From: Bacteroidota bacterium
Lineage (GTDB): Bacteria > Bacteroidota > Rhodothermia > Rhodothermales > JAHQVL01
Assembly: GCA_039111535.1 (NCBI GenBank)
Contig: JBCCIM010000021.1
Span: 1 to 48,057, forward strand
Length of the DNA stretch: 48,057 nucleotides
Reading direction: 5' to 3'
A program made the translations under genes and the position numbers. Positions within the stretch are counted from its first letter, which is position 1, and each line of letters opens with the position of its first letter. The notes beneath the pieces were generated by a model that made no database searches, had not been told where the DNA came from, and saw only the letters and a program-made list of their open reading frames with translations. Below, piece by piece: positions 6,534 to 27,251 of this stretch.

Positions 6534-7586
6534 ATGAAAAACGCCACTTCTGTTTTCCTGCTGTTGCTTTTTGTGCCGCTGGTTGCATGCGCCCAAACGC
6601 CGAACCTGTCGAATGAACTGGATGCTTACGTGGACGAGGTGATGACGGCGTATGGTATGCCAGGTGTGGCGTTTGCCGTGATCAAAGACGGGGAGGTTAT
6701 CCATAAAAAGAACTACGGACTGGCCAATCTTGAACACCAGGTGCCCGTCACTGAAAACTCGATTTTCCGCGTGTATTCCCTTACCAAACTTGTGGTGATT
6801 TCAGGGCTCTTCCAGCTTGTTGAGCAGGGCAAGCTTTCGCTCGATGACCAGATCACTGACTATGTAGATGGCCTGCCGGCAACCTGGCACCATCTACAAA
6901 TCAAACACCTCATCACACATTCTAGTGGCCTGCCCGATATGGCGCCGATTCCAGTCTTCCAGGAGCTATCGGAAGACGCAGCAAAAGCACGCGTGTTTGC
7001 AGAGCCGCTGCGGGCTGAGGCCGGCAACGTGTACGACTACAACCAGACCAATTTCTGGCTACTCAAAGAAATCATTGAGCGGGTCACAACCATGCCTATG
7101 GATCAATTTCTTCTTGAAAATCAGTTCAGCACGGCGCCAGATACTGCCTTCTTCTCTGTGGACTCGCGAGACATCATCCGTAACCGCGTCACTGCGTATT
7201 TCCCTTTTGCGAAAGGCTACACAACCATTGAGCATCCCTATTTGCAAGGCGACTATGCTTATGCCATGAACGGACTCAATATCACCCTCAATGCTTTTAT
7301 CCACTGGAGCCAGCAATTGCGCAACGATACAATTATGCAGCCGGCAACGCGTGCTAAAATGTGGGAGCCCTTTCCGTATGCGGCGTCGGATAAGCTATTT
7401 ACGTATGGCTGGGACATGCGACCCGTGCAGGGGCACAATTCGTACGGCTTCTCTGGCAGCCTGGTCACTGCCTATCGCATTTTCCCTGATGACGATCTTA
7501 GCATCATCTTTTTAGCCAACGGCATGCGCGACTTCTTCAATATTGAGGACATCATGAATACCATCGCCATGCGCGTGCTCGAGTAG
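6534..7586 (+). CDS. beta-lactamase-like serine hydrolase lipoprotein
   Basis: A 350-residue protein of the serine beta-lactamase/class C-like family (esterase or D-aminopeptidase type). The start at 6534 gives a lipoprotein signal ending VAC-AQ. The active-site SxxK is S82-L-T-K85 (in RVYSLTKLV). The second motif, aligned by its flanks (YNQTNFWLL), has Y169 with the asparagine position of YxN replaced by glutamine, as in many Bacteroidota relatives. The C-terminal KTG-like position is probably in YGFSGS. The length is usual for the stand-alone catalytic domain without extra barrel domains. The substrate is not predictable: peptide, ester or cell-wall fragment. It is convergent with the FecR gene (26 bp apart). 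Confidence 0.87.
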   Translation: MKNATSVFLLLLFVPLVACAQTPNLSNELDAYVDEVMTAYGMPGVAFAVIKDGEVIHKKNYGLANLEHQVPVTENSIFRVYSLTKLVVISGLFQLVEQGKLSLDDQITDYVDGLPATWHHLQIKHLITHSSGLPDMAPIPVFQELSEDAAKARVFAEPLRAEAGNVYDYNQTNFWLLKEIIERVTTMPMDQFLLENQFSTAPDTAFFSVDSRDIIRNRVTAYFPFAKGYTTIEHPYLQGDYAYAMNGLNITLNAFIHWSQQLRNDTIMQPATRAKMWEPFPYAASDKLFTYGWDMRPVQGHNSYGFSGSLVTAYRIFPDDDLSIIFLANGMRDFFNIEDIMNTIAMRVLE

Positions 7587-9220: not shown

Positions 9221-10252
9221 TTATCGCTCCTGGACGTGAATCCAGATTGCAGGATGCATGCCGGCAAACACGCCAATGTTGTTGCTCATATTGGTCTTGA
9301 TTCGCACAGCTTCTGCAAAAGGGTTTTGTAACGATTCGTTTTGCAGTTTCAGCGTGCGGTGGTAATCATGGAATGATTGGGTGACGGTTGAAAACTCGAT
9401 CACCTGCTGGCACTGGAGTTCTGGCGGCGAATTGGTGCTGGCGCCACAAATGTCGTCAGCTACCTCGATTACAATTTCTTTGCGCTCGCCATCGAAAAAT
9501 GCATCACTGAATGTGATGCCATCATCCTGGATCTGGGATGGATTGTTGTCGCCAATCAAGTCGTCGGGGTCGGCGCCAAACAGGTCGTCTTGAAGATTGG
9601 AAACAAGCTCAAAACCTGAGGTTGTAGAGATGATGAAGGTGGTTAACGTATCGATGGTCCGGTAGTGATGTCTGAGGTTGTAGTAGTTGTCCTCGCCGGC
9701 CGGATCGTCAAATACAATGCGGATTTCACCACGAACACCCAGTTCGTCACTGGCCGTTTGAGGCGTATAGACGGCTTCCTGTATGGCAACAGGCGCAGGA
9801 ATATGATCTGTACCCGTAACCGTTTCATAGCCTTCAGCGCTTACTTCTACGCTATACGTTTGGCCAGCGACCGGCCGGAACGTTTTCGATTTGTAGCGCG
9901 CTACCAGTCGGTTACTTTCATTGTTGCCGGGAGAATCAGTCGGCAGCGGCGTAAGGATAAAGCCACCATTCAGCCAAAATAAATCTTTATAAGGCAGCAC
10001 TTCGAGCACCTCGCCATCAGCAAGAACGGCTACCCTGGCGTTGGTAACGGCCTGCGGTTTGTTACTCCCAATGAGCGGCGCATTGGTGTTTACGTAGACT
10101 TCGATGAGGCTATCTGGCTGGAAAATACCATTCACCACAAGCGCAGGTTCTGGTTCTGGCAAGCTGGCTTCAAGGATGAAGTCTTCCTGGCAGCCCATGC
10201 TACCGATTGTGATTGCCAACAGGCCTATAAATGCAAAACGTTGAAAGCTCAT
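9221..10252 (-). CDS. DUF4249 lipoprotein
   Basis: A 343-residue lipoprotein. The signal peptide ends GSMGC-QEDF with lipidation at C21. It is followed by the family's opening pattern (PEPEPALVVNGIFQPDSLIEVYV), in which a hydrophobic strand leads into a beta-sandwich. DUF4249 proteins accompany TonB receptors in Bacteroidota, and no function has been demonstrated that I know of. The ATG lies 3 bp after the receptor stop codon, so the two are co-translated. It probably sits at the outer membrane as a receptor accessory. Confidence 0.9.
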   Translation of the reverse strand: MSFQRFAFIGLLAITIGSMGCQEDFILEASLPEPEPALVVNGIFQPDSLIEVYVNTNAPLIGSNKPQAVTNARVAVLADGEVLEVLPYKDLFWLNGGFILTPLPTDSPGNNESNRLVARYKSKTFRPVAGQTYSVEVSAEGYETVTGTDHIPAPVAIQEAVYTPQTASDELGVRGEIRIVFDDPAGEDNYYNLRHHYRTIDTLTTFIISTTSGFELVSNLQDDLFGADPDDLIGDNNPSQIQDDGITFSDAFFDGERKEIVIEVADDICGASTNSPPELQCQQVIEFSTVTQSFHDYHRTLKLQNESLQNPFAEAVRIKTNMSNNIGVFAGMHPAIWIHVQER

Positions 10253-10255
10253 ATC

Positions 10256-12922
10256 TTAAAATTCGAAAGCGTAGCTGAAAGAGGGCAGGAAGGGAAAAAG
10301 GCTGGCTTGTTTGAGCACAAACTCCGTGTCATCCACAAAGCCACCCCCACTTTCACCAAGGTTCTCTTCTACAAAAATGAAGTACGGATTGCGCCGGTTG
10401 TAGGTGTTGTAGGCACCAAGCGTGAGTACATGGTTACCCCGCGGAGTTGGCCATGTAAAGTTGGCGCCAATGTCCAGGCGGTGGTAAGCCTGCATCCGGT
10501 ACCCGTTGCGTGGACCTACGCGTTCAGCGTCTATGTTGGTTGCCTCGATAAGACTGTCGTAGGTGATATTCGAAATAACACCGGGACTGAAGCGCGCTGT
10601 GCTGATGGTGACCGCTGCGCCTGTGCCGTAGACCCATGAGCCGGATAAGCTGAGGCGGTCGGAAAGGTGGTGCACTAGGGTAAGTGCTACGTCGTGCCGC
10701 CTGTCGTATCTAAAGGGGAAGGTCTCGCCGTTGTTTAGGTTTTCAAACGTTCGATCGGAGCGGGACAGCGTGTAACCCAGCCACCCCGTAGTGCGGCCCG
10801 TGCTTTTCTGGATAAATAGCTCGATGCCGTACGACGTCCCTTCGCCGGCTTCTACATTGTCTTGCCAGTCGTTCGACGCACCAAGAAAGTTTGCCCCTTC
10901 TTTGTACTCGATGATGTTGTCCATCGTTTTGTAGTACGCTTCAAGACTCACCTCAAAAGCATGCGATGTACTATGCGCGAGGCCAACTGTAAATTGCTCA
11001 GAACGTTGGGGCGCGACATTGTCTGTAGCCGGCACCCAAAGATCGGTGGGCAGCCCTAGTCCACTGTTCACCAGCAAGTGGATGTACTGCGACATACGGG
11101 CATACGAGGCTTTTAACGACCAGCCGGCTGCCACCCGAATCCTTGCTGCAACGCGTGGTTCAATGTCGTTATAGGTTGTACCGTTTACCGCGTACAGCGA
11201 CCCGCGGAGTCCAAGGTTGAGGCCGAGCACGCGTCCAATTTTAATATCGTCTTCTACGTAAATGGCGGCTTCCAGGGTGTTGAGATTGGAGACCGGGACG
11301 ATGAGTGTATCCTGGCGCGGGGTGTCGACAGGGCCATCGTTTAATTGCAGGGTGCCGGTGGCGAAGTTGTGGTTTGTAATCTGGGTGCCGAAGCGGATAT
11401 GATGGGCCGGCGAGGGAATAAAGTCAAAGTCGATTTTCCCGCCTATGTCTTCTACCCCCGAGTCATACAGCAGGCGGTAGCGCTCCTGGACCAATTCATT
11501 TTCGACCCTTCGAAAGCGTACGTCGTCTTGTTTCGTTTCCAGGTTGTAGCGGCTGTATAGCAGCGTGGTGTTGCTGAAGAGCTTATCTGAAAACAGATGA
11601 TTCCAGCGGATCGTGGCAATGGTGTTGCCCCAACTGATACCAAACTGGTTGCGCGGTGAGACATTCTCTCCGCTATCAAAGTCATTGACCTGCTCGTACC
11701 GATCACTGCCACCATAAACGCTGGCAAAGATGCGATCTTTCGACGAAAAGCGGTGGTTTAGTTTGCCGTTGAAGTCGAATAAGGCGTAGGCCGGATAGTC
11801 GTTGGCATCTGTGAAGGGCGCAATAAACACGTCGACGAGCGATCGCCGGCCTGAGAAAATAAACGAGGTTTGATCTTTTTTTATTGGACCCTCGAGGGTC
11901 AGGCTGCTGGCTGCCAGTCCAAGCGAAGCTGCACCCGAGAGCTCCTTCATATTGCCCTCCTTCATGCTGATGTCGATCACCGAAGAGAGCCGGCCACCGT
12001 ATCTGGCGGGGAAGCCGCCTTTGAGCAGGGTGACATCATTTAGGGCCCGGGCATGAAAAATGGAGAGAAAGCCAAACAGGTGGGAGGGGTTGTATACAGT
12101 GGCACCATCTAGTAAAAACAGGTTCTGGTCCACGCTGCCGCCTCGTACGTAAATGCCTGTGGTACCTTCGTTGCCAGATTGTACGCCCGGCAACAACTGC
12201 ACAGCGCGGAGTACATCTGGCTCCCCAAGTAAAGCCGGCATGTCCTGCACCTGTTCTACAGGGAGCCGTACCATACTCATTTGGGTCCGTTCATCTATGG
12301 AGGCTTCCACTTCTCCAATTACAACCAGGGTGTCGAGTCCCAGGGATGCGGGGGTAAGCGAGATATCCAGGGTCCGGTCCTGGTTTAAGTCAAAATCGAA
12401 CAGCTCTTTTTCATAGCCGACATAGGAGGAGACCAGCGAAACGGGGCCCTCTTTAAGGGTGAGGCTGTAGAAGCCGTATGCATTGGATGTAACGCCGGCT
12501 TCTGCATTGCGGTCATATACCGTGGCATAAAGTAGGGCCTCACCCGTACGCGCATCCCTTATAAATCCGCTGATGGTATGTTTAGATGGACTGTCAGAGG
12601 CGGGCGGTTTAAGAACAACTTTATAGGTACCTGTGGCTGTACTTTCAATGTCCAGGTTTGTATTTGCCAAAATGCAGCGGAGTACGGCTTCGACAGGGGC
12701 GTTACTGATGGCACAATTCGTCAGGAGATCCGCCACAAGCTCAGACGTAAACCCGATACCTACCTGGGTATCCAGTGACACCTGGGTTAAAGCCTCTGCT
12801 ACCGGTTTATTTTCAAAAGTATAGCTGAACAGGGTGCTGTCTGGCCTGGCCGGCGATTGTGCGCTTGCCGTTTGCAGGGCAGCAGGCATCAGCAAGAAAA
12901 TCAGGGCAAAGAGACGGTACAT
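10256..12922 (-). CDS. TonB-dependent transducer with STN domain
   Basis: An 888-residue outer-membrane receptor. I choose the ATG at 12922 because it begins the signal peptide (MYRLFALIFLLMPAA...SAQ). Domains in order: STN secretin/TonB signalling domain at about residues 30-110 (FSYTFENKPVAEALTQVS), carboxypeptidase-regulatory-like domain at about 120-200 (ISGFIRDARTGEALLYATV), plug at about 225-340 (VRGGSVDQNLFLLDGATVYNP), then a 22-strand-type barrel ending in an aromatic FEF. The STN domain marks it as a transducer for the FecR/ECF pair in the same operon. The ligand is unknown; such receptors import siderophores, glycans or peptides. Confidence 0.93.
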   Translation of the reverse strand: MYRLFALIFLLMPAALQTASAQSPARPDSTLFSYTFENKPVAEALTQVSLDTQVGIGFTSELVADLLTNCAISNAPVEAVLRCILANTNLDIESTATGTYKVVLKPPASDSPSKHTISGFIRDARTGEALLYATVYDRNAEAGVTSNAYGFYSLTLKEGPVSLVSSYVGYEKELFDFDLNQDRTLDISLTPASLGLDTLVVIGEVEASIDERTQMSMVRLPVEQVQDMPALLGEPDVLRAVQLLPGVQSGNEGTTGIYVRGGSVDQNLFLLDGATVYNPSHLFGFLSIFHARALNDVTLLKGGFPARYGGRLSSVIDISMKEGNMKELSGAASLGLAASSLTLEGPIKKDQTSFIFSGRRSLVDVFIAPFTDANDYPAYALFDFNGKLNHRFSSKDRIFASVYGGSDRYEQVNDFDSGENVSPRNQFGISWGNTIATIRWNHLFSDKLFSNTTLLYSRYNLETKQDDVRFRRVENELVQERYRLLYDSGVEDIGGKIDFDFIPSPAHHIRFGTQITNHNFATGTLQLNDGPVDTPRQDTLIVPVSNLNTLEAAIYVEDDIKIGRVLGLNLGLRGSLYAVNGTTYNDIEPRVAARIRVAAGWSLKASYARMSQYIHLLVNSGLGLPTDLWVPATDNVAPQRSEQFTVGLAHSTSHAFEVSLEAYYKTMDNIIEYKEGANFLGASNDWQDNVEAGEGTSYGIELFIQKSTGRTTGWLGYTLSRSDRTFENLNNGETFPFRYDRRHDVALTLVHHLSDRLSLSGSWVYGTGAAVTISTARFSPGVISNITYDSLIEATNIDAERVGPRNGYRMQAYHRLDIGANFTWPTPRGNHVLTLGAYNTYNRRNPYFIFVEENLGESGGGFVDDTEFVLKQASLFPFLPSFSYAFEF

Positions 12923-20375: not shown

Positions 20376-20877
20376 ATATAAATTCATTTTCAATGAGGCG
20401 AGCGGGGTGCAATTAAAAAGTGCGGCCTGAGCTTTTCTTTTTGTTGGCGACAATTTGCATGTGGCCTGCAAGGGTGGTAACTCCATTTGTAGGGGCTTCC
20501 TTGCCTTGGTTGGTGCAGACCTCCCTTACTTGATCATTTCTTCAGGGCTAGTCATGGCCCATCGATACTTCAGTAAAGGTACATTTGTGCGTAAATCGGT
20601 CTGGCAGGTGGGGGTTGTACCTCGTTGTTTACGGTTGCTAAGGGTGCATTTCGTGCACGCATACTGCGTTTATCTCCTCCTGAACCTGAAAAAAATCAAT
20701 AAAATCAGCAAAAAACGATCAGTTGTGGTATATGTGATCGTTTTTATTTTTTATTTTCAGAAATAATTGAAACTAAAGCGTTCTATTGCGTATATTATAA
20801 TCGGAGTTAGTAGGTGAGGTGTCGCTTGCGAGCTCCTGATAAAATCAACAGTCGGCACTTTAGTAAGGTGTGTTATT
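20376..20877. other. intergenic region with terminator, no gene supported
   Basis: It separates the sugar operon from the sigma-photolyase pair. A frame of 103 codons (20455-20766) has no recognisable protein character and runs through the terminator at 20711. The last 110 bp should hold the sigma gene promoter; TATATTATAAT at about 20793-20803 is AT-rich, but no clear element can be assigned. Confidence 0.5.
20711..20755 (+). terminator. rho-independent terminator
   Basis: AAAAACGATCA (20711-20721) pairs perfectly with TGATCGTTTTT (20735-20745) around a 13-nt loop, followed by ATTTTTTATTTT. It should end the sugar operon transcript, and its T-tract/A-tract flanks make it possibly bidirectional. 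Confidence 0.85.
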
Positions 20878-21546
20878 ATGGCTCGACGTTTACATAAAGA
20901 AGACGCCGTGGACCAGCTCCAGTCTGATGCGCGTCGATTTAGAGCAACCTTGGAGGGGATGAGTGATGAGGAGTTGATGGAGCAGTTCCAAACCGGTTGT
21001 GTGGAAGCGTTCAATATTATTGTAGATCGCTTCTCAGATCGTTTAATGCAGTACCTGCGCGGGTTTCTTAAAGACGAAAGCCAGTGTCAGGATATGCTGC
21101 AGGAAACGTTCATGCGCGTATACCGGAATCGGCATTCATACACGCGTATTGCGCGGTTGTCTACCTGGATTTATACCATCGCCGGTAACCTGGCGCGTTC
21201 GGATTACCGCCGGCGCCAGCGCTGGAAGATGTCATCAATCACTGCCCAGACGCGAGATGGGGAAGAGGAGTTTGAAAAGCAGTTGATGGGAGATATTCTT
21301 TCTCCGGATGAGTACGCTGAATCGGTTATCCAGGATAAGCACATTCAGAATGCATTGATGCGGATTCCGGTAACCTTCCGGGAGGTGATTGTTCTTCGCG
21401 ACATCCAGGACATGGATTACGAGAGCATCGCCAGGATTACAGCGTTACCACTGGGTACCGTGAAAAGCCGTATCAACCGCGGTCGTATTAAGCTCCAGGA
21501 GCTTTTGCGGGACATATATCCGTACGATAACCTCTCCACAGTTTGA
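20878..21546 (+). CDS. ECF sigma factor adjacent to photolyase
   Basis: A 222-residue sigma-70 family ECF protein. Region 2 spans about residues 45-110 (FLKDESQCQDMLQETFMRVYRN, then ARLSTWIYTIAGNLARSDYRRR). Region 4 is near 160-215 (VTFREVIVLRDIQDMDYESIARI, LPLGTVKSRINRGR). A basic and acidic N-terminal extension of about 40 residues precedes region 2. No anti-sigma gene is adjacent. The photolyase starts 17 bp after its stop on the same strand, so the two are probably one transcript. In Streptomyces a LitR-controlled ECF sigma (LitS) drives light-induced photolyase and carotenoid genes; the same wiring here is inference. Confidence 0.93.
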   Translation: MARRLHKEDAVDQLQSDARRFRATLEGMSDEELMEQFQTGCVEAFNIIVDRFSDRLMQYLRGFLKDESQCQDMLQETFMRVYRNRHSYTRIARLSTWIYTIAGNLARSDYRRRQRWKMSSITAQTRDGEEEFEKQLMGDILSPDEYAESVIQDKHIQNALMRIPVTFREVIVLRDIQDMDYESIARITALPLGTVKSRINRGRIKLQELLRDIYPYDNLSTV

Positions 21547-21563
21547 TGTGACAGGTAGCAGGC

Positions 21564-23105
21564 ATGAAGCATAACCTGCAGGGTTTGCAGGTTGTATGGT
21601 TCAAACGCGACCTGCGAATAACGGACCATGAGCCGCTTTTAGAGGCCGCAAAACGCGGCCCTGTGCTACCTTTGTATATTTTTGAGCCGGCCCTCTGGCA
21701 ACAACCTGACATGAGTGGCCGGCATTATGCATTTCTCAAAGCTTCGCTCACTTCGCTCGACAATGCATTGCGGGCATTGGGGCAGCCGCTTGTCTATCGC
21801 ACAGGTGATGCCGTTGCTGTCCTCCAGCAGCTAAAAGAAAATTACGGCATTGCGGCGCTTTGGTCGCACCAGGAAACGTGGAATGGATGGACCTATACGC
21901 GGGATATCGCAGTAGGGAAGTGGTGTAAATCCAACAATATCCCCTGGCATGAATCCCGGCAATTTGGTGTAGTCCGGCGCATGAAATCACGCGATGGCTG
22001 GGCGGAAGCCTGGGATGCGTTAATGGATCAACCGCTGTGGGAAGCGCCGGCCTCACTTCAACCCCTCGATATAGAAGCAGGCCGTATACCTGCTGCCACC
22101 TCGCTGCACATCCTCCCAGATCCCTGTCCGCTTTTGCAGCCGGGCGGAAGAGAAAACGGGATACTGGAACTACAATCGTTTTTTGAAGAGCGAGGTGAGG
22201 ATTATCAGCAGGGCATGTCATCACCGTCACGCGCAGTTTCTGCATGCTCACGTATATCACCGCATCTTGCGTTTGGGACGCTTTCAATGCGTGAGGTGCA
22301 CCGGGCAACAGAAAAGGAAAAGCGCACATGGCAGGGTGCGCCGCCGGCAATGCGCGGTAATTGGTTACGGGCGTTGCAAGCTTTTTCAGGGCGGCTACGC
22401 TGGCACTGTCACTTTATCCAAAAACTGGAAGACGAGCCGACGCTTGAGTTTGATAACCTGCATCAAGCCTACAACGGGCTCCGAGAAGCCGGTAAAGGCT
22501 CAGTGCACTACGAGGCCTGGGCAAGTGGACAAACAGGTTTTCCTATGGTAGATGCCTGCATGCGTGCGCTGCAGGCAACGGGGTGGATCAATTTTCGTAT
22601 GCGCGCCATGCTTATGAGTTTTGCTTCTTACCACCTGTGGTTGCATTGGCGCGATACCGGCCTCCACCTTGCGCGCCTATTTGTCGATTATGAACCAGGT
22701 ATTCACTACAGCCAATGTCAGATGCAGTCGGGCACCACAGGCATCAACACCATTCGCATTTACAACCCCATCAAACAGGGCATCGACCACGATTCTGATG
22801 CAGCATTTATAAAGCGTTGGGTGCCCGAGTTGGCAGACGTGTCTGCAGCGCAAATACACACGCCGGCATCTTTGCAAGGTTTACCCGTAGCTTATCCGCA
22901 GCCCATCGTGGAAGAAGCAAGTGCGCGCAGGATGGCTGCAGACAAAATCTACAGCATCAGACAAGATGCGGGACACGCTGAAGTTGCACAACGCATTGTT
23001 CAGAAACACGAGAGTCGAAAGGCGGGGCTCAACAGATCACGACGTGTACAGCGTCCGAAGACAAAAAAGCGGCACCGTGGTCAGTTGGAACTGCCGTTTG
23101 AATAG
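21564..23105 (+). CDS. cryptochrome/photolyase family protein
   Basis: A 513-residue flavoprotein. The N-terminal Rossmann-like domain opens VVWFKRDLRITDHEPL. The FAD-binding domain has SRISPHLAFGTLSMREV (about 230), TGFPMVDACMRAL and WINFRMRAMLMSF (about 330-350), and NTIRIYNPIKQG near 400. The catalytic-domain Trp/His pattern is compatible with DNA repair. It ends in a strongly basic tail of about 30 residues (RKAGLNRSRR...KTKKRHR, then ELPFE) that could bind DNA. The likely role is light-driven repair of UV pyrimidine dimers. It is downstream of the ECF sigma gene, and its 3' end overlaps the CarH-like gene by 25 bp (convergent). Confidence 0.92.
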   Translation: MKHNLQGLQVVWFKRDLRITDHEPLLEAAKRGPVLPLYIFEPALWQQPDMSGRHYAFLKASLTSLDNALRALGQPLVYRTGDAVAVLQQLKENYGIAALWSHQETWNGWTYTRDIAVGKWCKSNNIPWHESRQFGVVRRMKSRDGWAEAWDALMDQPLWEAPASLQPLDIEAGRIPAATSLHILPDPCPLLQPGGRENGILELQSFFEERGEDYQQGMSSPSRAVSACSRISPHLAFGTLSMREVHRATEKEKRTWQGAPPAMRGNWLRALQAFSGRLRWHCHFIQKLEDEPTLEFDNLHQAYNGLREAGKGSVHYEAWASGQTGFPMVDACMRALQATGWINFRMRAMLMSFASYHLWLHWRDTGLHLARLFVDYEPGIHYSQCQMQSGTTGINTIRIYNPIKQGIDHDSDAAFIKRWVPELADVSAAQIHTPASLQGLPVAYPQPIVEEASARRMAADKIYSIRQDAGHAEVAQRIVQKHESRKAGLNRSRRVQRPKTKKRHRGQLELPFE

Positions 23106-24061
23106 GTCAAAACAGGCGGTACATTGCCGAGCCAATCCTGAAAAGGCGCCATCCGGCTAAACAGTTTTACGTCAGGAATCCGCGTGATGAGTGCTGCGGG
23201 CTCCGTATTGTTACCCAATGCGCTGCCACCCAAAATCAGCCGGTAGGGGAGTGTTTTATCGTAAATGCGGTCCAGCAAACGGATCATGGCGTGCGCTTCG
23301 GGAATGCCCATTGGTGGCATCAAAGAAATACACACCAGCGCTGCACCATGTTTTAACTGTTGATGGGCAAACTCTTCGGTTGGTACGTTAAGACCGAGGT
23401 AAACAATTTTCCAGCCCATTGCTTCCAGCAACACCCGAACCATCAAGGCACCCAGTTCATGCACTTCGCCGCGGGCGCATCCAACAATTGCAACCGGGGG
23501 CGTTTCCGGTTTCTCCTTCAGTTTAAGTGCGCTGGTTGTGCTGAGGGTGACGAGAATATCCCGCATCACCTGCGTCATGCGGTGCTCGTCTCCGATGGTC
23601 AGATTACCTTCAAAATAGTTCACTCCTACCCGGCTCATAACAGGGCCAACCAGGTAGTCAAAGACCATCCCCACTGAATAACCCGTGTTAACCAGATGCG
23701 TCATGAGGTACGTCATGCGGGCTATTTCGCTTTGTTGTATCCACCGATAGCACAAAGCTACGAGGCCATTAAAATCAGTTTTCTGTTTGATTTGGTCGAG
23801 TAGTGCCCAAACTTCGCCGGCGTCAGCACCAAAATGCCGTAAGTGAAGGTCGATACGCTGCGTATTAGCAAATCGCACGAGGGCATGAATGGGAATACGC
23901 CTGTGTCCACCCGGTGTCAGCCAAAATTCGAGTTCGTTGGCGTTGCACCACCTCTTGACCGATGACTCGTGCACGCCAAGCATTTCAGAGGCTTGTCTCG
24001 TTGATACAGACCTGTCCTTGTCTGCTCTATCTGCTGATGTTGACTCCTGTAGCACTGCCAT
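23081..24061 (-). CDS. CarH/LitR-like B12-binding transcriptional regulator
   Basis: A 326-residue regulator. Residues about 18-70 form a MerR/BldC-type winged HTH (STRQASEMLGVHESSVKRW, wing GGHRRI). Residues 90-175 match the helical bundle that caps adenosylcobalamin; the W-x9-EH motif of CarH is present as Y149-x9-E159-H160. Residues 188-320 form a B12-binding Rossmann fold with E199-V-H201-E-L-G204 in place of DxHxxG, S236-x-M and G268-G269. In CarH, light breaks the cobalamin Co-C bond and releases DNA. The neighbours (photolyase, rhodopsin, lycopene cyclase, blh) fit a light sensor. The Tyr-for-Trp and Glu-for-Asp changes are deviations. Confidence 0.9.
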   Translation of the reverse strand: MAVLQESTSADRADKDRSVSTRQASEMLGVHESSVKRWCNANELEFWLTPGGHRRIPIHALVRFANTQRIDLHLRHFGADAGEVWALLDQIKQKTDFNGLVALCYRWIQQSEIARMTYLMTHLVNTGYSVGMVFDYLVGPVMSRVGVNYFEGNLTIGDEHRMTQVMRDILVTLSTTSALKLKEKPETPPVAIVGCARGEVHELGALMVRVLLEAMGWKIVYLGLNVPTEEFAHQQLKHGAALVCISLMPPMGIPEAHAMIRLLDRIYDKTLPYRLILGGSALGNNTEPAALITRIPDVKLFSRMAPFQDWLGNVPPVLTYSNGSSN

Positions 24062-24074
24062 AGCTGTTCAGCTA
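24061..24074. promoter_or_regulatory. inverted repeat at the regulator start codon
   Basis: TAGCTG (24061-24066) and CAGCTA (24069-24074) are separated by 2 bp and abut the start codon of the CarH-like gene (24059-24061 on the minus strand). It could be an operator or an RNA stem limiting translation. Confidence 0.4.
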
Positions 24075-24152
24075 ATATTCTAAAGTTGCACGCAAGCGTA
24101 GAGACCTGAGGGTGGTGGAGTGGAAAGTTAGGTACGACAAACGATCATAATA

Positions 24153-24165
24153 GTTCGAGTCGAAC
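24153..24165. promoter_or_regulatory. palindrome GTTCGA-G-TCGAAC, operator candidate
   Basis: A perfect 6-bp inverted repeat around one base, about 92 bp upstream of the CarH-like start codon, embedded in a longer imperfect ACAAACGAT...CGATTTGT arrangement (24137-24171). The position fits autoregulation. Confidence 0.5.
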
Positions 24166-24338
24166 GATTTGTATGTACGGACGCATCTCGATAAAAGTTG
24201 GTGCAGGAGGATCTTTGTGACCATAAATCTTCATTTTGAAGACAGAAAAGCACTTTCAAGCATGTTGATACATTTGTTGATAACGCTCTTTTTTGTATGA
24301 AAAGATCGTTAAGATACATCTTTTTGTTAGTGTGTATC

Positions 24339-24371
24339 GATCAAGTCGATCTTTTGATCTATTTAAGATCG
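24339..24371. promoter_or_regulatory. interlocked GATC inverted repeats upstream of rhodopsin
   Basis: GATCAA (24339-24344) pairs with TTGATC (24354-24359), and CGATCTT (24347-24353) pairs with AAGATCG (24365-24371). AAGATC/AAGATAC also occur at 24302 and 24311. The cluster is 115-185 bp before the rhodopsin ATG in the 424-bp divergent region, where a regulator of both sides could bind. No promoter hexamers can be assigned with confidence. Confidence 0.5.
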
Positions 24372-24423
24372 AAATAAACTGGTTATTAATGGTCGGGATA
24401 GTGTAATATCGTTCAGTAATACT

Positions 24424-24453
24424 AAATCAGAACGTAATGTTAGTGTCTGATTT
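24424..24453 (+). other. 5' leader hairpin of rhodopsin mRNA
   Basis: AAATCAGA (24424-24431) and TCTGATTT (24446-24453) form a perfect 8-bp stem with a 14-nt loop, ending 32 bp before the rhodopsin start. It may stabilise the mRNA or be a protein site. Confidence 0.5.
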
Positions 24454-24472
24454 CTTTATCTCACCAAACTCG

Positions 24473-24479
24473 TAAGAGG
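24473..24479 (+). promoter_or_regulatory. ribosome-binding site of rhodopsin gene
   Basis: The sequence GTAAGAGGT lies 7 bp before the ATG at 24486. This is a clearer Shine-Dalgarno than most genes here have, which suggests strong expression. Confidence 0.6.
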
Positions 24480-24485
24480 TCCCTC

Positions 24486-25283
24486 ATGTTTGAGATGCCT
24501 ACACTCACCCCAGGGCAATATGCACTGGTCTTTAACATGTTTTCGTTTTCGATTGCTGCCATGTTGGCTGCTTTCGCGTTTTTCTTCATGGCACAAAATC
24601 GGGTAGCGCCGAAGTATCGAATTTCATTGATCGTGTCTTCCCTGGTTGTCGGCATTGCTGCATACCACTATTTCCGGATTACAGCCAGTTGGGAAGCTGC
24701 CTACACATTGAGCGGCGGCGAATATGTTTTCAGCGGTGAACCTTTCAATGATGCGTATCGCTATGTCGACTGGTTGCTTACCGTCCCGCTTTTGCTTGTT
24801 GAACTCGTGCTTGTGCTGTCGCTGTCCCGCTCCAAAAGTGGTCCGATGCTGGCCAAACTTACAGTTGCAGCAGCAGCAATGATCATTCTTGGCTACCCAG
24901 GCGAACTGGCTACCGACAATGGTACGCGCGCACTCTGGGGTGGACTGAGCACAATTCCTTTTGTATACATCCTCTACATACTCTGGGGAGAGCTTGGTAA
25001 GGTCCTGAAAACGCAGCCCCCTCGCGTGCAGGTACTTACACGCAACATTCGCCTGCTCCTTATCGCAACATGGGGCTTCTATCCGATCGCATACATGGGT
25101 CCTTTCTTTGGACTCGGTGGTGCTTCGGGCGAAGTGATCGTACAGGTCGGTTACTCCATTTCCGACGTGCTTGCAAAAGCGGCATTTGGTGTGATGATCT
25201 ACGCCATTGCCCGCGCGAAGTCTGAAGCCGACGGTTGGTTGGTTGTAGAAGAAGAGCGCGAGTACGCGGAAGTCGCTGCTTAA
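24486..25283 (+). CDS. xanthorhodopsin-like outward proton pump
   Basis: A 265-residue seven-helix microbial rhodopsin. Helix C RYVDWLLTVPLLLVE carries D95 (proton acceptor), T99 and E106 (donor), the DTE motif of proton pumps, with R92 before it. H61 is the likely partner of D95. L103 at the tuning position predicts green absorption. Helix G carries the retinal lysine K231 (DVLAKAAFG). A long B-C loop (about residues 66-90) and G153 at the place of proteorhodopsin F152 are xanthorhodopsin features; that glycine opens the site where a carotenoid antenna binds. It pumps H+ out of the cytoplasm in light. The lycopene cyclase and blh genes follow on the same strand. Confidence 0.95.
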   Translation: MFEMPTLTPGQYALVFNMFSFSIAAMLAAFAFFFMAQNRVAPKYRISLIVSSLVVGIAAYHYFRITASWEAAYTLSGGEYVFSGEPFNDAYRYVDWLLTVPLLLVELVLVLSLSRSKSGPMLAKLTVAAAAMIILGYPGELATDNGTRALWGGLSTIPFVYILYILWGELGKVLKTQPPRVQVLTRNIRLLLIATWGFYPIAYMGPFFGLGGASGEVIVQVGYSISDVLAKAAFGVMIYAIARAKSEADGWLVVEEEREYAEVAA

Positions 25284-25307
25284 TGACAACAACATAATGC
25301 AGCACAA

Positions 25308-25355
25308 CCAGGTGCGGGATGTTTACCTCCTTTAACCCGCACCTGGGCCCTTTTT
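25308..25355 (+). terminator. strong terminator between rhodopsin and lycopene cyclase genes
   Basis: CCAGGTGCGGG (25308-25318) pairs perfectly with CCCGCACCTGG (25336-25346), an 11-bp GC-rich stem with a 17-nt loop, followed by GCCC and five T (25351-25355). It starts 25 bp after the rhodopsin stop. Partial read-through would give the enzyme genes less transcript than the pump. Confidence 0.88.
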
Positions 25356-25390
25356 CCGCTTCCTCCCACCTTCTATAGCGGCAGTGTATC

Positions 25391-26143
25391 ATGACCTACT
25401 TGCAGTTCCACCTGATTTTTACGTTACCAGTTATTTTTTACCTGAAAATGACTGGGCCGAAGGTTTTTGCGCGCGATATGACCAAGGCAACGGTTTCGCT
25501 TTTTGTGATCGCGTCTATTGCCTTTATTTGGACCACACCCTGGGACAACTACCTGATTCAACAAGGTATTTGGGGCTATGGACAGGGTCGCGTGCTTGGT
25601 ACACTTGGCTATGTCCCTGTTGAAGAGTATTTCTTTTTTCTTGCTCAGCCCTTGCTGACAGGGTTTTGGCTGTACCGCCTGATCTGGAAATCCAACCTGA
25701 TCCAGCCGGCAGAACCCAGTAACCGGGCAAGGTATGTGGGCAGCGCCTGTATGCTGATTTTAAGCCTTGTAGGTGTAGCGTTATTATCTGTTGAGTCGGC
25801 GCTTTACCTTGCGCTAATCCTCGTGTGGGCTTGCCCGATGCTTCTTATTCAGTGGTTGTATGGCGGTCATCACCTGTGGCGGTTGCGCAAGTTATGTTTT
25901 GTGGCCGTTTCCTTGCCTACGCTGTATCTATGGTGTGCTGATTGGATCGCCCTCCATTTTGGCATCTGGCATATTTCCGATCGGTTCACTACTGGTGCGC
26001 ATCTTTTCGGATTGCCCATCGAAGAAGCGCTGTTTTTTCTCGTAACAAACATGCTTGTTGTCCAGGGACTGGTGCTGATGCTGCACACCTGGAACGTCAA
26101 AGCGCTGCGTCATAAAACCCCCGTGTTTTATGGCAACCACTGA
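25391..26143 (+). CDS. crtY: fused lycopene cyclase (CrtYc-CrtYd type)
   Basis: A 250-residue integral membrane protein made of two homologous halves, each with the cyclase signature: PVEEYFFF (residues about 76-83) and PIEEALFF (about 209-216). In Gram-positive bacteria the halves are separate CrtYc and CrtYd; here they are fused, as in archaea and some Bacteroidota. It cyclises lycopene to beta-carotene. It starts 107 bp after the rhodopsin stop, behind a terminator, with no strong SD. Its last 14 bp overlap the start of blh, so the two enzymes are made together. Confidence 0.92.
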   Translation: MTYLQFHLIFTLPVIFYLKMTGPKVFARDMTKATVSLFVIASIAFIWTTPWDNYLIQQGIWGYGQGRVLGTLGYVPVEEYFFFLAQPLLTGFWLYRLIWKSNLIQPAEPSNRARYVGSACMLILSLVGVALLSVESALYLALILVWACPMLLIQWLYGGHHLWRLRKLCFVAVSLPTLYLWCADWIALHFGIWHISDRFTTGAHLFGLPIEEALFFLVTNMLVVQGLVLMLHTWNVKALRHKTPVFYGNH

Positions 26144-27251
26144 GTTCGTTGTTTCAGAGAGCCGGCGCCTGCATTTTTCTACTTTGATTCAGCAAGTGCC
26201 GTACGTATGTATCGCTTTGTTTGTAGCGCTGCATGCCATACTTCCTACACCTGAAGGTATTTGGTTATACGTTCCGCTGTTGGCAAGTATGCTATTTCTT
26301 GGGCTGCCGCATGGCGCTGTTGACCACATGGTTTTGCTACAGTTGCAGAACAAGGTGTGCAGCCCAGTTGCGTTGGCTCGCGTAATTTTCCCATATCTCG
26401 TGTTGGCTGGCTGTTATTTGGTGATGTGGTTTCTAACGCCGGCCCTGGCCTTTGGCTTGTTCATTCTGATTACCTGGTTTCACTGGGGGCAGGGGGATGT
26501 ACACACGCTGGTGATTTTTGCTCGTGCAGCTCACCTAACCTCGGTGCATATGCGCCGGCTCGCGCTTGTGGTACGCGGCGGACTGCCTATGTTAATACCG
26601 CTCCTTGCCTTTCCTGAAGTCTACCAAGAGGTGTTTACGGGTATAACAAGTCGTTTTACAACGGCAGCAGCTACCGACATAACCTGGCCATTTGCCCCCA
26701 GCTTTCGATTAGGAATGGGTTTGGGATTTGCAGGCTTGACCACGTTTTACTTCCTGTATGGATTTTACAAGCTCCGCTGGGGACTCAATCGGGCTTATTT
26801 GGAAGACCTGGCTGAAGTGATCTTGCTGGCTGTCTTATTTGCGTCGGTGCATCCGCTTGTTGCGATCGGCCTTTATTTTTGCTGCTGGCACGCCGTCCGG
26901 CACATTGCGCGGATAGTTGTTTTCTCAGTGCGCGATGATCAGCCTGATACCGGGCATCAGGTTGAAATGAAACACGGGGCAATTAAACTCCCGGTAATTA
27001 AACAGGGCATACGGCGCTTTTTTATACAGGCGTTGCCAACCACCCTGGTCGCGTTACTTGGCCTTGGTATGCTGCATGCGCTGGTGCCGCATACGCCAGA
27101 GTCGGTCGCAGAATTTACAGGTCTCTATCTCGTGTTAATTGCTGTGCTTACTGTACCGCATGTCTGGGTTGTCTGGCGGATGGATACTGCGGAGGGGGTT
27201 TGGTCGACGCTTCCTCAGAAAGAAACCGTAATCCCTGTTCCTAATTCGTAA
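26130..27251 (+). CDS. blh: Brp/Blh beta-carotene 15,15'-dioxygenase
   Basis: A 373-residue membrane enzyme with about 8-9 TM helices. It cleaves beta-carotene into two retinal molecules. The iron-binding histidine motifs of the family are present: GLPHGAVDH (H61, H66), TWFHWGQGD (H118), CCWHAVRH (H254, H258), and the C-terminal VPHVWV. Its start overlaps the lycopene cyclase stop by 14 bp. With the cyclase and rhodopsin it forms a retinal supply cassette. The 3' end overlaps the convergent barrel-protein gene by 37 bp. Confidence 0.94.
   Translation: MATTEFVVSESRRLHFSTLIQQVPYVCIALFVALHAILPTPEGIWLYVPLLASMLFLGLPHGAVDHMVLLQLQNKVCSPVALARVIFPYLVLAGCYLVMWFLTPALAFGLFILITWFHWGQGDVHTLVIFARAAHLTSVHMRRLALVVRGGLPMLIPLLAFPEVYQEVFTGITSRFTTAAATDITWPFAPSFRLGMGLGFAGLTTFYFLYGFYKLRWGLNRAYLEDLAEVILLAVLFASVHPLVAIGLYFCCWHAVRHIARIVVFSVRDDQPDTGHQVEMKHGAIKLPVIKQGIRRFFIQALPTTLVALLGLGMLHALVPHTPESVAEFTGLYLVLIAVLTVPHVWVVWRMDTAEGVWSTLPQKETVIPVPNS

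Follow-up and report, generated by a model that had tools for sequence, protein, structure and literature searches.

Six genes lie together at 20878-27251 of the window, the 48,057-nucleotide stretch analyzed here, which makes up an entire contig in the 6.59-Mb, 355-contig draft genome of a Rhodothermales bacterium (genome G000). On the forward strand, an ECF sigma factor of 222 amino acids (20878-21546; Sigma70 r2/r4 by Pfam and NCBIfam) is followed after 17 bp by a photolyase/cryptochrome-family flavoprotein of 513 amino acids (21564-23105), comprising PF00875 DNA_photolyase and PF03441 FAD_binding_7 domains. This gene overlaps by 25 bp a convergent gene on the reverse strand (23081-24061), which encodes a regulator of the CarH/LitR/CtMerR type with HTH_17 and B12-binding domains. 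A 424-bp spacer (24062-24485) separates the regulator gene from a divergent forward-strand gene for a predicted xanthorhodopsin-type proton pump of 265 amino acids (24486-25283; Bac_rhodopsin). Behind the pump, on the same strand, are a lycopene cyclase of the two-domain CrtYcd/CarR-domain type (25391-26143; 250 amino acids; TIGR03462, PF18916) and, overlapping it by 14 bp, the retinal-making Blh β-carotene 15,15'-dioxygenase (26130-27251; 373 amino acids; PF15461 and TIGR03753 Brp/Blh). These ORF coordinates agree exactly with the six genes and all the spacings given in a first-pass annotation of this DNA, and the Pfam and NCBIfam searches confirm the families.

The rhodopsin has xanthorhodopsin as its best PDB match (3ddl, E 4.8e-98). 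Alignment to its PDB matches reveals a DTE motif (DWLLTVPLLLVE), which we take to be the proton-pump motif, and places a glycine, within LWGGLST, at the position of bacteriorhodopsin Trp138, presumably the opening used by a carotenoid antenna. The earlier assignment as a xanthorhodopsin-like pump is borne out by these features: the protein combines a xanthorhodopsin-like sequence with the DTE and glycine of a xanthorhodopsin-type proton pump, and both pumping and antenna binding are predicted.

The sigma factor contains Sigma70 regions 2 and 4 only, the architecture of an ECF sigma, and is a divergent paralogue of an ECF conserved in the order; no anti-sigma gene adjoins it. In the tree its nearest neighbor is the regulator-linked ECF of genome G002 (support 93/92). 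A single supported clade of regulator-linked ECFs was rejected, as only these two group together and the ECF of G012 falls outside any supported group. The adjacent flavoprotein has E. coli photolyase (1dnp) as its best PDB match. In the HMMER alignment to 1dnp, which is remote, E. coli Asn341, Met345, and Trp382 align with Phe, Ala, and Cys, respectively; we take these three to be catalytic or electron-transfer positions of the E. coli enzyme. In the same remote alignment, IHYSQCQMQSGTTGINTIRIYNP stands where the E. coli CPD active-site and Trp-chain positions are missing. The residues that would mark a class I CPD photolyase are not found here, within the limits of that alignment, and the protein may be cryptochrome-like or diverge from the rest of the family in another way. 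The photolyase of the first-pass annotation is upheld at the level of family domains. A DNA repair role is a family-level guess, since several key positions of E. coli photolyase are missing.

The regulator comprises a helix-turn-helix (HTH) domain (residues ∼17-70), a four-helix bundle (73-175), and a B12 Rossmann domain (190 to the end), which is the domain arrangement of CarH. Its best PDB match is CtMerR (8jbs, E 1.4e-25), CarH (5c8d) being weaker, and Foldseek matches an AF2 model (pLDDT 92.1) to both CarH and CtMerR. In the HTH, which matches HTH_17, the RxWERRY recognition helix of CarH is absent. The lower-axial motif D/ExHx2G...S...GG is present as E199-V-H201-E-L-G204, S246, and G278-G279, with His201 as the axial histidine, and GxxxP is present as Gly223xxxPro227. 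CarH is defined by Wx9EH together with ExHx2G; the tryptophan stacks on the adenosyl group and is reported to be conserved in every CarH studied. Here the cap motif is Tyr149-x9-Glu159-His160, that is, Yx9EH instead of Wx9EH. Three of the four SignatureFinder elements (GxxW, EH, GxxH, and GxxxP) are present, and GxxW reads GxxY, which places the protein outside CarH by this test. The score against the NCBIfam CarH equivalog NF052513 is 49.9 bits, below the curated cut-off of 400. Judged by its sequence, the regulator departs from the textbook CarH. The CarH/LitR-like B12 sensor proposed earlier stands as regards the HTH and B12 domains, the EH pair, and the axial histidine, and falls short at the tryptophan of Wx9EH. 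The genome encodes a cobalamin adenosyltransferase, so the cell can probably make adenosylcobalamin (AdoCbl) from cobalamin, and light sensing by the regulator through AdoCbl is plausible.

Loss of the cap tryptophan extends to all eight regulators linked to a rhodopsin: five carry Tyr (the window, L049, L052, L085, and L112), two His (L105 and L106), and one Cys (L110). Ten further regulators of the same clade all have Tyr. The tryptophan is kept in 41 other relatives from Rhodothermia, Gemmatimonadota, and Myxococcota, among them regulators beside carotenoid genes and all new Gemmatimonadota and Myxococcota homologues. The tree splits the two types with support of 95/96, the cap column being included in the alignment. 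Outside one genus (g30), the tyrosine is invariant among proteins that are only ∼45% identical. In one genus, certain rhodopsin-linked regulators (L105, L106, and L110) combine His or Cys at the cap with Glu in place of the Gly of GxxW, which suggests relaxed or changed cofactor binding with the operators remaining.

Comparison of the regulator-rhodopsin spacers of relatives yielded an inverted repeat, AACG(A/C)TCA-N11-13-TGA(T/G)CGTT, as a candidate operator; when the intergenic region was searched for repeats by itself, none stood out clearly. A matrix built from sites outside the window was then scanned across it, and its five best positions in the 48 kb fall without exception within the two target promoter regions, one before the ECF gene and four in the 424-bp spacer. 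The top score (26.6 bits) belongs to O1 (20714-20742), a perfect inverted repeat, AACGATCA-N13-TGATCGTT, that lies 135 bp upstream of the ECF start codon. Within the spacer, predicted operators O2 (24140-24168; 13/16, gap 13, 18.6 bits), O3 (24282-24310; 14/16, gap 13, 18.0 bits), and O4 (24336-24362; 13/16, gap 11, 18.2 bits) are accompanied by a weak possible site, O5 (24408-24436; gap 13), ∼50 bp before the rhodopsin start, whose 12.7 bits are about what the best chance sites of the window score. When either region was shuffled 1000 times, the observed best score was never matched. Tandem 11-bp repeats of the CarH type (nnnnTnnACAn) were absent from both 24062-24485 and 20376-20877.

Across the 6.59-Mb genome, O1 is the sole match with 0-1 mismatches at a gap of 12 or 13. 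Allowing 2 mismatches at gap 13 adds nine sites, of which one is in the regulator-rhodopsin spacer and most of the others inspected are inside ORFs. A wider regulon in this genome was rejected on these grounds. One AT-rich 2-mismatch site (G000:C4:35826-35854, L195), near a malate-dehydrogenase-like gene, may be intergenic. The sole promoter-like match before the ECF gene (20767-20796) is downstream of O1, a position of O1 that would suit an activator as well, so the regulator may repress or activate this promoter. O1 falls outside 20767-20877, one of the two fragments that had been chosen in the first-pass annotation for a binding assay. The hairpin at 20711-20745 was also considered as a mere terminator. 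This was rejected, as in L049 the repeat immediately precedes the regulator gene at a place without any gene end; termination of the preceding gene is a possible side role.

The candidate operator follows the regulator clade. It occurs within 350 bp upstream of 17 of the 18 non-Trp regulator genes at p ≤ 0.05 against dinucleotide shuffles (14 at p ≤ 0.01), many of these 18 loci not having been used to find the motif, as against 15 of the 41 Trp-type genes in the same test. With a second matrix, made from non-rhodopsin loci only, rhodopsin promoters next to a regulator (n = 8) score 14.1-26.3 bits and those without one (n = 24) at most 12.7 bits (p 1.6e-5); the eight are not phylogenetically independent, six coming from one genus. 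The regulator-linked ECF genes of G002 and G012 also have an operator upstream.

The arrangement recurs in its parts. Among 114 genomes of the order, a close rhodopsin is found in 26 and a regulator homologue likewise in 26. Both occur in nine, and in eight of these they are divergent neighbors (G000, G030, G045, G058, G097, G098, G100, and G101), mostly followed by cyclase and/or blh, so the linkage of regulator and rhodopsin is not due to chance. In G002 the regulator has a related ECF gene as its divergent neighbor; in G012 one lies close by, beyond a transposase gene. Among the genomes examined, only the window shows all six genes in this order, and no photolyase-family gene adjoins the regulator in the other rhodopsin loci; G097 has a 44% relative of the flavoprotein in the vicinity of a Trp-type regulator. 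Outside the order, 17 more rhodopsin loci from a phylum-wide sample showed no regulator in their 1.5-kb flanks. Of the gene order described earlier, the regulator-rhodopsin pair recurs in the genomes examined, as does the regulator-ECF pair in G002 and G012, and the six genes as a unit do not. As far as can be read from sequence, the locus is a real, recurring, and dedicated regulatory module.

Several known systems resemble the locus in part. With CarH/LitR of Thermus, Myxococcus, and Bacillus megaterium it shares the HTH and B12 domains, EH, ExHx2G, and a carotenoid-type gene neighborhood, but it has Yx9EH rather than Wx9EH and an inverted rather than a tandem repeat, and a rhodopsin pump is among its predicted targets. 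CarA of Myxococcus xanthus likewise lacks the cap tryptophan while keeping EH and the B12 motif; in contrast to CarA, the window regulator has an aromatic Tyr that is conserved in most of its clade. In Streptomyces, LitR-LitS pairs a MerR-type light regulator with an ECF sigma and a photolyase. In Vibrio cholerae, a MerR protein acts with SigmaE-ChrR, where an anti-sigma keeps the sigma bound and ROS are the signal (PMC5241685). Both resemble the window in joining a MerR-type light regulator, an ECF sigma, and a photolyase, and differ from it in having no rhodopsin. The nearest relative of known structure is CtMerR of Chloracidobacterium thermophilum (PDB 8jbs/8jbt), an AdoCbl-bound tetramer that responds to green light and is dismantled by it, and whose DNA-binding domain is unlike that of CarH (PMC11796333). 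CtMerR is the best PDB sequence match and among the best fold matches, with a four-helix bundle and B12 Rossmann domain in common and a DNA-binding domain again of a kind distinct from CarH; it differs in having the signature Trp156 where the window regulator has Tyr149, and no operator or target of CtMerR is described in PMC11796333.

The shared predicted operators make it very probable that one CarH/LitR-type regulator controls both the sigma-photolyase and the rhodopsin units. We propose that the regulator would bind the inverted repeats in two places, ahead of the sigma-photolyase unit and in the spacer that divides its own gene from the rhodopsin-cyclase-blh unit, and would thereby control itself, a light-stress branch (ECF and photolyase-family protein), and light-energy capture (pump and retinal synthesis). 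By analogy with the family, the AdoCbl-bound regulator would repress in the dark, and light would cleave the cofactor, free the operators, and switch on both branches. Joint control by one regulator, as put forward in the first-pass annotation, gains from the shared operators; the direct repeats of CarH are missing, and an inverted repeat takes their place. To explain control of the pump, the sigma factor need not be invoked, because the rhodopsin unit has its own predicted operators. Taken as a whole, from B12-domain regulator and inverted-repeat operators to dark repression and release of both branches by light, we consider this proposal rather probable. The light step is its weakest part, because the adenosyl-capping Trp is Tyr.

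The same substitution bears on the reading that competes most directly, in which the regulator keeps its targets and, like CarA, has lost B12 light sensing, light or oxidative stress arriving through, for example, the ECF sigma or an antirepressor. Myxococcus CarA, which has lost this Trp, is B12-independent, and the residue is missing in every rhodopsin-linked regulator while the Trp-type relatives keep it. However, the invariance of Tyr outside one genus at such low identity looks like constraint rather than decay, EH, the axial His, and GxxxP are intact, and Tyr could still stack on adenosine; we regard this reading as unlikely, though well short of negligible. A changed cap with retained corrin and lower-ligand features would also suit a sensor of cobalamin status (the supply of B12, or a different cobalamin, for example methylcobalamin) rather than of light, and the genome encodes, beside the adenosyltransferase, a B12 protein of methionine-synthase size. 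Against this, the target genes are all light-related and no B12 uptake or synthesis gene with an operator was present among the sites inspected, making such a role improbable. That the cluster is accidental or merely historical, its two units not being co-regulated, might be argued from the restriction of the six-gene order to the window and from the position of the photolyase-family gene away from the regulator at other rhodopsin loci. The near-unique predicted operators common to both units, and the separate recurrence of each pair, argue against it strongly enough that we give it hardly any weight.

For the Trp-less, mostly Yx9EH clade as a whole, we see an even chance that it serves Rhodothermales as a dedicated rhodopsin switch whose cofactor pocket has changed and whose operator is an inverted repeat, being either a B12 photoreceptor of a new photochemical class or a sensor of another signal. 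How bacteria switch on rhodopsin pumps is poorly known, and here a regulator, an operator, and targets can be named. The locus would link a family of green-light B12 sensors, until now connected chiefly with carotenoids, to a proton pump and a light-stress branch, and its natural Trp-to-Tyr change at the adenosyl cap bears on what makes a B12 domain light-sensitive. As the earlier annotation had held of this coupling, we found no report of CarH/LitR control of a rhodopsin in the open-access literature. For the CtMerR-like branch, the open-access literature found describes no binding site, and we propose the inverted repeat as one.

Several non-Trp regulators without a rhodopsin (L033, L034, and L036) stand beside genes for ferritin-like, fasciclin, GTP cyclohydrolase I, and FAD-oxidoreductase proteins, which may reflect a broader light-stress regulon in this clade. 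In G012 (L034), the gene between regulator and ECF is that of a DDE transposase (9986-11173), and the operator before the ECF is kept. The window genome itself contains a second CarH/LitR-type regulator (L044, G000:C24, 8990-9949) with intact Wx9EH, adjoining phytoene-synthase, desaturase-type, and LytB genes in an ordinary carotenoid locus, which provides a built-in control for the window regulator. Sharing of the operator by this paralogue was rejected, as no strong site lies by its gene. A single in-frame stop divides the lycopene cyclase gene of that locus (6562-7308, reverse strand) between its two halves, giving frames of 100 and 136 amino acids; this may represent a cyclase of two subunits, a disrupted gene, or an error in the sequence.
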